DNA of 64,000 nt from contig OY978101.1 of assembly GCA_963854735.1 (NCBI GenBank), positions 1,116,001 through 1,180,000 of the forward strand. Direction: 5' to 3'. The stretch's first letter is position 1; every line of letters starts with the position of its first letter. The notes beneath the pieces were generated by a model. It saw only the letters and a program-made list of their open reading frames with translations. It was not told the origin of the DNA and did not search any database. Shown here in pieces: positions 4,351-5,361 of this stretch. The position numbers and the translations under genes are program-made. Source of the stretch: Marvania coccoides. Taxonomy: Eukaryota; Chlorophyta; Trebouxiophyceae; Chlorellales; Chlorellaceae.

Positions 4351-5361
4351 TTAGAAGTCTCCCTCCTCGTCAGACTCAGAGTCGTCGTCGTCCTCATTGG
4401 CCTTGATCTGCAATCAGGGCGGCACAGGGCTTTTTGGTCAGCTGTCTGGTTTTCGGCCGTTCCCAGCGCCTCTCTCCTCTCCGCTCAAAAATGCAAACGG
4501 CTTGAGAGCCTGAAAGCCAGCTTAAGCAGAAAAACTACAAGACTTGTCGGATTTTCTTACCTGCCAGCCATCGGCGATGAGCACCCGGCGCACCGTCACC
4601 AAGGGCGCCTCCGCGTCCGCAGCAGTGACGCCCTGCTCCGCCAGAGTGGCGTCCAGCTTCAGCTCGCGGCCTTTGAAGACAACGCGCTCCCAGGGGTCGG
4701 TAAAACCCTCCAGGCGCAGCAAAGTGTCCACCGGCGCCCAGCCAGCAGTCTTTGCCACCTGGAAAACACAATTAATATTTTAGATTTTAAGCAATGAAAT
4801 ATGATTGACTACAAAGTTAGTGCTTGATAATGTACAAGGCTGCAAAAAAAACTGCAAATAAACTTTGGAATTGCAATTCAAGGTGTAATCCCTCGCTACC
4901 TTCTGCAGCAGCTGCAGGCCGGTGGTGGCGGCAGGGTCGATCTCCACGCTGATGTCCTGCAGCTCCTCGGTTTTGGTCGACATGCTCTCCTTCCAGTACA
5001 GCGACCACTTGTCCTTCTGCACGCGGGGGCGCACGGTGAGCGCCACCTTTCCTCCGCGCAGGCGCAGCACCAGGTGCAGGGTGGAATCTTTCTGGATATT
5101 GTAGTCAGCAAGGGTGCGGCCGTCCTCGAGCTGCTTGCCCGCGAAAATCAGGCGCTGCTGATCGGGAGGGATGCCTGCAAACATTTATTATTTTTTTCCT
5201 ACTTGCAAATTAAAAATTGCTTGGCCGCTGGGCTCTCCGGCTGCGGAAATATATTTACCTTCTTTATCCTGGATCTTCGCCTTCACATTATCGATGGTGT
5301 CGCTGCTCTCCACTTCGAGAGTAATCGTCTTCCCAGTGAGCGTCTTCACAAAGATCTGCAT
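4351..5361 (-). CDS. Ubiquitin fused to a divergent ubiquitin-like domain and acidic tail
   Basis: Four exons (5361-5259, 5174-4900, 4758-4561, 4407-4351) close in frame to 210 aa. Residues 1-76 are essentially canonical ubiquitin ending in LRLRGG, with an Asp where most ubiquitins have Glu at position 64. Processing proteases would be expected to cut after Gly76. The remaining 134 aa are neither ribosomal protein S27a nor L40, the usual fusion partners. They contain WERVVFKGRELKLDATLAEQ followed by PLVTVRRVL, which lines up with ubiquitin's QRLIFAGKQLEDGRTLADY and TLHLVLRL, so this is a second, divergent beta-grasp domain. It lacks a terminal diglycine and ends in an acidic tail (EDDDDSESDEEGDF). 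Role unknown: ubiquitin may serve as a chaperone-like leader, or the uncleaved form may act as a tandem adaptor. Confidence 0.85.

Follow-up and report, generated by a model that had tools for sequence, protein, structure and literature searches.

The occurrence of fusion-encoded ubiquitin in nearly all eukaryotes has been called a mystery in the passage concerned of PMC8122580. The sections of an algal survey that deal with fusion partners name NiSOD, actin, the ribosomal protein P1, IMP and the F-actin capping protein among others, state that a targeted search of Chlamydomonas gave only S27a and L40 fusions, list a hypothetical ubiquitin fusion of 200 residues from Bigelowiella (AAP34639) and warn that annotation misses such fusions (PMC6332867). 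An earlier note on the DNA studied here had taken the partners to be confined to S27a, L40, polyubiquitin and RUB, and these sections contradict it. For animals, the passages on FUBI–eS30 (FAU) in PMC8354635 and PMC10611586 describe a diglycine-bearing ubiquitin-like (Ubl) leader which is removed by USP36 or USP16. Here we analyze a gene of the green alga Marvania coccoides in which ubiquitin is fused to a divergent Ubl domain. It lies in a stretch of 64,000 nucleotides (the window; contig OY978101.1, positions 1,116,001 to 1,180,000). We consider it fairly probable that the encoded precursor is cut after Gly76, with ubiquitin acting as a cis leader and the freed Ubl as a folded binding adaptor.

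The ubiquitin–Ubl gene of Marvania

The gene is found on the minus strand from 5361 to 4351, where the earlier note had put it, and its four exons give a spliced reading of exactly 210 residues and a stop codon. Exon 1 (5259..5361) holds the ATG, ubiquitin residues 1–34 and the first base of codon 35, as verified by the spliced reading and by Pfam PF00240. Exon 2 (4900..5174), supported by the spliced reading and by homologues, contains the remaining ubiquitin up to LRLRGG (Gly76) and continues into the Ubl tail for 50 residues from Lys77, among them the WSLYWK hairpin. The central Ubl core (LLRLEGF..PWE, KGREL, VRRVL, GW) is encoded by exon 3 (4561..4758), and the acidic tail IKANEDDDDSESDEEGDF with the stop codon by exon 4 (4351..4407). 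All three introns have GT...AG borders: intron 1 within the ubiquitin part (5175..5258, 84 bases, GTAAAT...TTGCAG), intron 2 (4759..4899, 141 bases, GTAGCG...TTCCAG) and intron 3 (4408..4560, 153 bases, GTAAGA...TTGCAG). The similarity of the tail to its homologues runs on through exon 4, which supports the predicted splicing.

As a single uninterrupted exon covers the latter half of ubiquitin, the LRLRGG-K junction and the 50 tail residues next to it, the fusion is independent of any splice guess. An error of the gene model, with the ubiquitin exons and the tail on different transcripts, is thereby excluded for the junction; moreover, other sources predict complete ubiquitin–tail proteins of comparable length, and such an error is very improbable. 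In the host genome (22.46 Mb, 15 contigs) the gene is single copy, bar one row at E 0.093.

Residues 1–76 are ubiquitin ending in LRLRGG and share 74/76 identical positions with the polyubiquitin unit of the host, the differences being D24 and D64, which agrees with the earlier description of a canonical ubiquitin followed by 134 residues. The complete protein matches PF00240 with E 2.1e-36. Its layout is that of a ubiquitin fusion precursor: a single ubiquitin at the N-terminus is followed in frame by another protein, with a diglycine at the junction. From the spliced reading, the codons of Gly75-Gly76, the predicted deubiquitinase cleavage site, are at 5050..5055, and the codon of Lys77, the first tail residue, is at 5049-5047. 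Separate polyubiquitin, Ub-RUB and Ub-L40 genes are present in the same genome. The host S27a gene (G000:C4, about 611928-612305, minus strand, locus L013) has a decayed ubiquitin ahead of it, which ends in LRLLGG followed by AKKRKKK, in contrast to the canonical ubiquitin of the ubiquitin–Ubl gene. The survey sections cited above mention S27a fusions with a divergent ubiquitin from other eukaryotes (PMC6332867).

The partner and its family

The tail comprises the 134 residues from Lys77 and ends in DDDDSESDEEGDF (DEEGDF), i.e., with an acidic finish and without diglycine, as had been noted before. The alignment with ubiquitin from which the earlier note had argued does not by itself carry the assignment, as the tail alone is not significant against PF00240 (E 0.065) and its best PDB phmmer match, ubiquitin, has E 0.037. 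The Ubl identity nevertheless holds: when 13 divergent relatives were scanned, each gave a PF00240 match with E<=1, the best being 4.5e-11, and the AlphaFold2 model of a ubiquitin-less relative has the ubiquitin fold, with a structural match to the beta-grasp fold. The reading of the Marvania tail as a diverged Ubl with an acidic C-terminus is thus supported.

Profile searches (Pfam, PDB phmmer) placed the tail neither in a ribosomal nor in a RUB family, a placement which the earlier note had named as counting against its proposal, and no ribosomal Pfam match was obtained at E<=10. A fusion with a ribosomal protein (eL40, eS31) was therefore rejected, the host also having separate Ub-L40 and Ub-S27a genes, and so was a FUBI–eS30 precursor, as no eS30 Pfam match to the tail was found. 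A second polyubiquitin unit was rejected because the tail is not near-identical to ubiquitin, as its PF00240 score indicates, and a conjugating Ubl of the Ub-RUB/NEDD8 type because of the DEEGDF end and the tail ends of the family described below.

We define here a WSLYWK Ubl family by the motifs PR.Q...WS.YWK.SM.T.T, LLRLEGF..PWE, KG.EL and VR..L..GW and by an acidic tail of the CK2 type; the Marvania tail has all of these. The tail could alternatively be the decayed second ubiquitin of a polyubiquitin or Ub-RUB gene, functionless by itself, since ubiquitin is its nearest Pfam family and the layout resembles a two-unit polyubiquitin. However, the family shows conservation between algal classes and lacks ubiquitin in rows from prasinophytes and haptophytes, the motifs peculiar to it vary little or not at all, and the host has polyubiquitin and Ub-RUB genes besides, so that this explanation is largely refuted and very improbable.

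The partner belongs to a family that is found in numerous green algae and in certain algae of other groups and that has ubiquitin-less members. Relatives were drawn from the best 120 of each source list, with organism names as given by the sources; 143 rows were gathered, and the 9 of the 143 without the core motif were dropped. Fused forms are present in Chlorella vulgaris, Micractinium, Myrmecia, Coccomyxa, Apatococcus, Trebouxia C0010, Auxenochlorella, Prototheca, Bryopsis and 'Picre1', which we take to be Picochlorum. The search for the same fusion in other green algae, proposed in the earlier note, was thus successful, and Marvania is not unique. Models without ubiquitin come from Cymbomonas, Micromonas, Bathycoccus, Pedinophyceae YPF-701, Parachlorella, Trebouxia C0006 and one UniProt cluster, whose mnemonic presumably denotes the haptophyte Diacronema lutheri. 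Some of the ubiquitin-less starts may be truncated gene models; this is more likely for Parachlorella and Trebouxia C0006, as their closest relatives have the fusion. In 16 rows, though, at least 16 non-ubiquitin residues precede the Ubl (P0045, P0047, P0073, P0077, P0084, P0087, P0089, P0091, P0099, P0100, P0110, P0124, P0128, P0138, P0140 and P0142). Eight of these (P0077, P0084, P0091, P0100, P0110, P0128, P0138 and P0140) stem from presumed transcript catalogues, in which an intron could not conceal a ubiquitin exon. No relative was confirmed in the viral contigs and the prokaryote genome set searched. Many members are hypothetical or unnamed in the databases; some are named 'ubiquitin', one 'bi-major isoform' and one 'probable ubiquitin-60S ribosomal protein L40 at N-terminal half'.

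For the complete acidic tails, those with at least four acidic residues after the GW region were chosen, which left 90 of the 103 rows with this region and excluded 13. None of the 90 ends in diglycine, and conjugation of the Ubl is therefore unlikely. At least one S/T-x-x-D/E site is present in 90/90 tails and two or more in 86/90. The terminal residue is F or W in 74/90; among the exceptions are the extended ends of the Chlorella and Prototheca group, the E or D with which the likely chlorophycean rows terminate, and P0107, P0111, P0114, P0119 and P0125. The EEY/F motif is a C-terminal acidic-aromatic ligand bound by CAP-Gly domains, and the host has four CAP_GLY matches. The acidic run with its terminal aromatic residue resembles such ligands, and by this analogy we would guess at a putative binding to CAP-Gly proteins.

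For a phylogenetic tree nine named rows (read-through, inserts, partial ends), tails of less than 100 residues and near-copies at 90% (121 to 92) were removed, P0046 and P0127 received the label 'decayed' by hand, and the chlorophycean label of some rows was assigned by inference. The tree of 92 tails and 126 columns has 22 open forks. The Marvania tail falls into a starred set of 29 rows, 24 of them fused by label; among the other five, P0004 and P0030 retain an LRLRGG remnant. From its position in the tree the alga was taken to be a trebouxiophyte. The canonical fusions P0061 and P0062 are found in a starred set of 28 rows (99/96) whose other 26 rows are ubiquitin-less by label, including Cymbomonas, Micromonas and Bathycoccus. 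A single origin of the fusions, with the 39 fused rows of the 92 as one clade, was rejected in the approximately unbiased test (p-AU 1.6e-27), which here also fights the placement of the presumed chlorophycean rows. The grouping of P0061 and P0062 with the 36 trebouxiophyte-clade rows, chosen after the tree had been seen, was modestly rejected (p-AU 0.025). P0062, P0034, P0035 and P0038 have a methionine right behind the diglycine, which looks like ubiquitin placed ahead of a start codon that stayed intact. We infer at least two ubiquitin–Ubl joinings, but losses could also give the pattern; gain and loss are indistinguishable, and the tree is weakly resolved.

Junction, proposed processing and surroundings

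The junction is readable in 58 rows; the pattern used to find it required GG, and hence these rows are no test of the glycines. Leaving out P0002, P0004, P0020, P0030, P0046, P0059 and P0127, which have too little or too weak ubiquitin, 51 ubiquitin parts were typed, giving 30 canonical (at least 80% identity) and 21 decayed ones. In the decayed ubiquitins K63 is kept in 2/21, K48 in 6/20, I44 in 7/20 and V70 in 8/21, and G35 in 15/16, L56 in 18/21 and both G75 and G76 in 21/21. Ten decayed representatives chosen by hand retain on average 49% (355/724) of positions 1–74, and only M1 (9/9), G35, L56, G75 and G76 (10/10 each) are universal among them. The tails of P0021, P0022 and P0026 are near that of P0016, and their ubiquitins are decayed (48-57/76 identical) as compared to 76/76 in P0016, apparently a case of recent decay.

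Directly after the glycines, 52/58 junctions have G, A, T, M, S or V and none has proline (0/58); 26 stretches of the host match the USP family. The earlier note had not decided between release and attachment of the Ubl. The constancy of G75-G76 in all decayed ubiquitins together with the lack of proline favours release, and cleavage after Gly76 appears likely. A signalling surface that decays beside a kept cut site would be expected of a disposable leader.

It is also conceivable that the two domains are never separated and that ubiquitin serves as a docking or degradation-targeting domain of a permanent tandem. The model of the fusion P0007 shows both domains folding separately, with a predicted local distance difference test score (pLDDT) below 50 only at 75–77 and 191–209, junctions of zero or one residue occur (P0061, Marvania), and the fold-core residues G35 and L56 are retained as in a kept domain. 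However, G75-G76 is constant and the binding patch (I44, V70) decays, the opposite of what a docking domain predicts, and members with non-ubiquitin upstream sequence exist. We therefore regard a permanent tandem as improbable.

Still less probable is that ubiquitin exposes a destabilizing N-terminus and that the Ubl is short-lived. Lysine is a destabilizing N-terminal residue, and cleavage would bare Lys77 as an N-degron in Marvania and likewise in P0005 and P0031. These are 3 of the 58 junctions, and the prevalence of G, A, T, M, S or V shows that a destabilizing start is no feature of the family.

According to the proposed processing, a deubiquitinase would cut behind Gly76 during or just after translation, as in other ubiquitin precursors, yielding one ubiquitin and one free Ubl beginning at Lys77. 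This Ubl belongs to an algal family that is ubiquitin-less in other lineages, which is probably the older state. Not being conjugable through a C-terminal diglycine, it would most likely be a folded binding adaptor, whose distinctive parts may be the long beta1-beta2 hairpin (KDKWSLYWKESM) and the acidic, CK2-type phosphorylatable tail, usually with Phe or Trp at its end. Ubiquitin would mainly be a cis leader aiding production of the Ubl, and with other ubiquitin sources in the cell it would be free to decay as long as the cut site stays.

Several points weigh against this proposal. Instead of a cut site, the kept diglycine might form a flexible hinge. Lys77 is uncommon as a start and, as a possible N-degron, could be ill-suited to a stable adaptor, and the single residue between the diglycine and the first strand in Marvania bears on the predicted cleavage efficiency. 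The 21 decayed rows are related and not independent, and a single origin of decay among the fused rows was not rejected (p-AU 0.063). The choice of tails with at least four acidic residues (90/103) favours the acidic and CK2 counts, and the adaptor function is putative.

As to the surroundings, about 30.7 copies of CAG follow each other without interruption in the adjoining gene (3784-3875) and code for about 30 alanines in its frame; by its start (ILHIDLDAFYAQVE) we take this gene to be one for a Y-family DNA polymerase. The gene on the other side (7043-7868), presumably for a 3-hydroxyacyl-CoA dehydrogenase, has no evident tie to ubiquitin. A 17-base tandem repeat of 3.6 copies is located in the intergenic region at 6166-6226.

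Comparison with known ubiquitin precursors

Apparently new here is a ubiquitin fusion precursor whose partner is a conserved and so far undescribed Ubl family. No account of a ubiquitin–WSLYWK Ubl fusion was found among the matches listed in our literature search, which lay outside most subscription papers and all supplements, and the passages concerned of PMC11839794 and PMC12930898 do not describe it. The finding points to an unnamed, strongly conserved algal Ubl protein. Across related species the same partner stands alone, behind intact ubiquitin or behind a decayed ubiquitin with a kept cut site, and the leader hypothesis therefore becomes directly testable outside the ribosome. Much more tentatively, it is possible that an undescribed algal Ubl adaptor family was joined to ubiquitin more than once, that ubiquitin was the disposable cis-chaperone of a partner from outside the ribosome and then decayed, in several lineages, to a FUBI-like leader keeping only fold and cut site, and that the acidic-aromatic C-terminus is a phosphorylation-tuned ligand, e.g., for CAP-Gly proteins.

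Like Marvania, the Ub-NiSOD, Ub-actin, Ub-P1 and Ub-IMP fusions carry ubiquitin on non-ribosomal or unusual partners in algae; judged by the names in the tables of the survey sections cited above, no partner is called a Ubl and some are only 'hypothetical' (PMC6332867). Ub-eL40 and Ub-eS31 (S27a), as outlined in part of PMC6721733, have the same layout of one N-terminal ubiquitin ending in LRLRGG and an unrelated small protein in equal amount. Their partner is ribosomal, whereas that of Marvania is a Ubl without a ribosomal Pfam match. The decayed algal leaders resemble FUBI in being ubiquitin-like with the diglycine kept, but the partner of FUBI is the ribosomal eS30 and the leader of Marvania is still canonical ubiquitin. 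Ub-RUB1/NEDD8 and polyubiquitin consist, as the Marvania protein does, of two tandem ubiquitin-fold units. A processable diglycine terminates RUB and ubiquitin units, which are conjugated; the Marvania tail, in contrast, ends in an acidic run and Phe.
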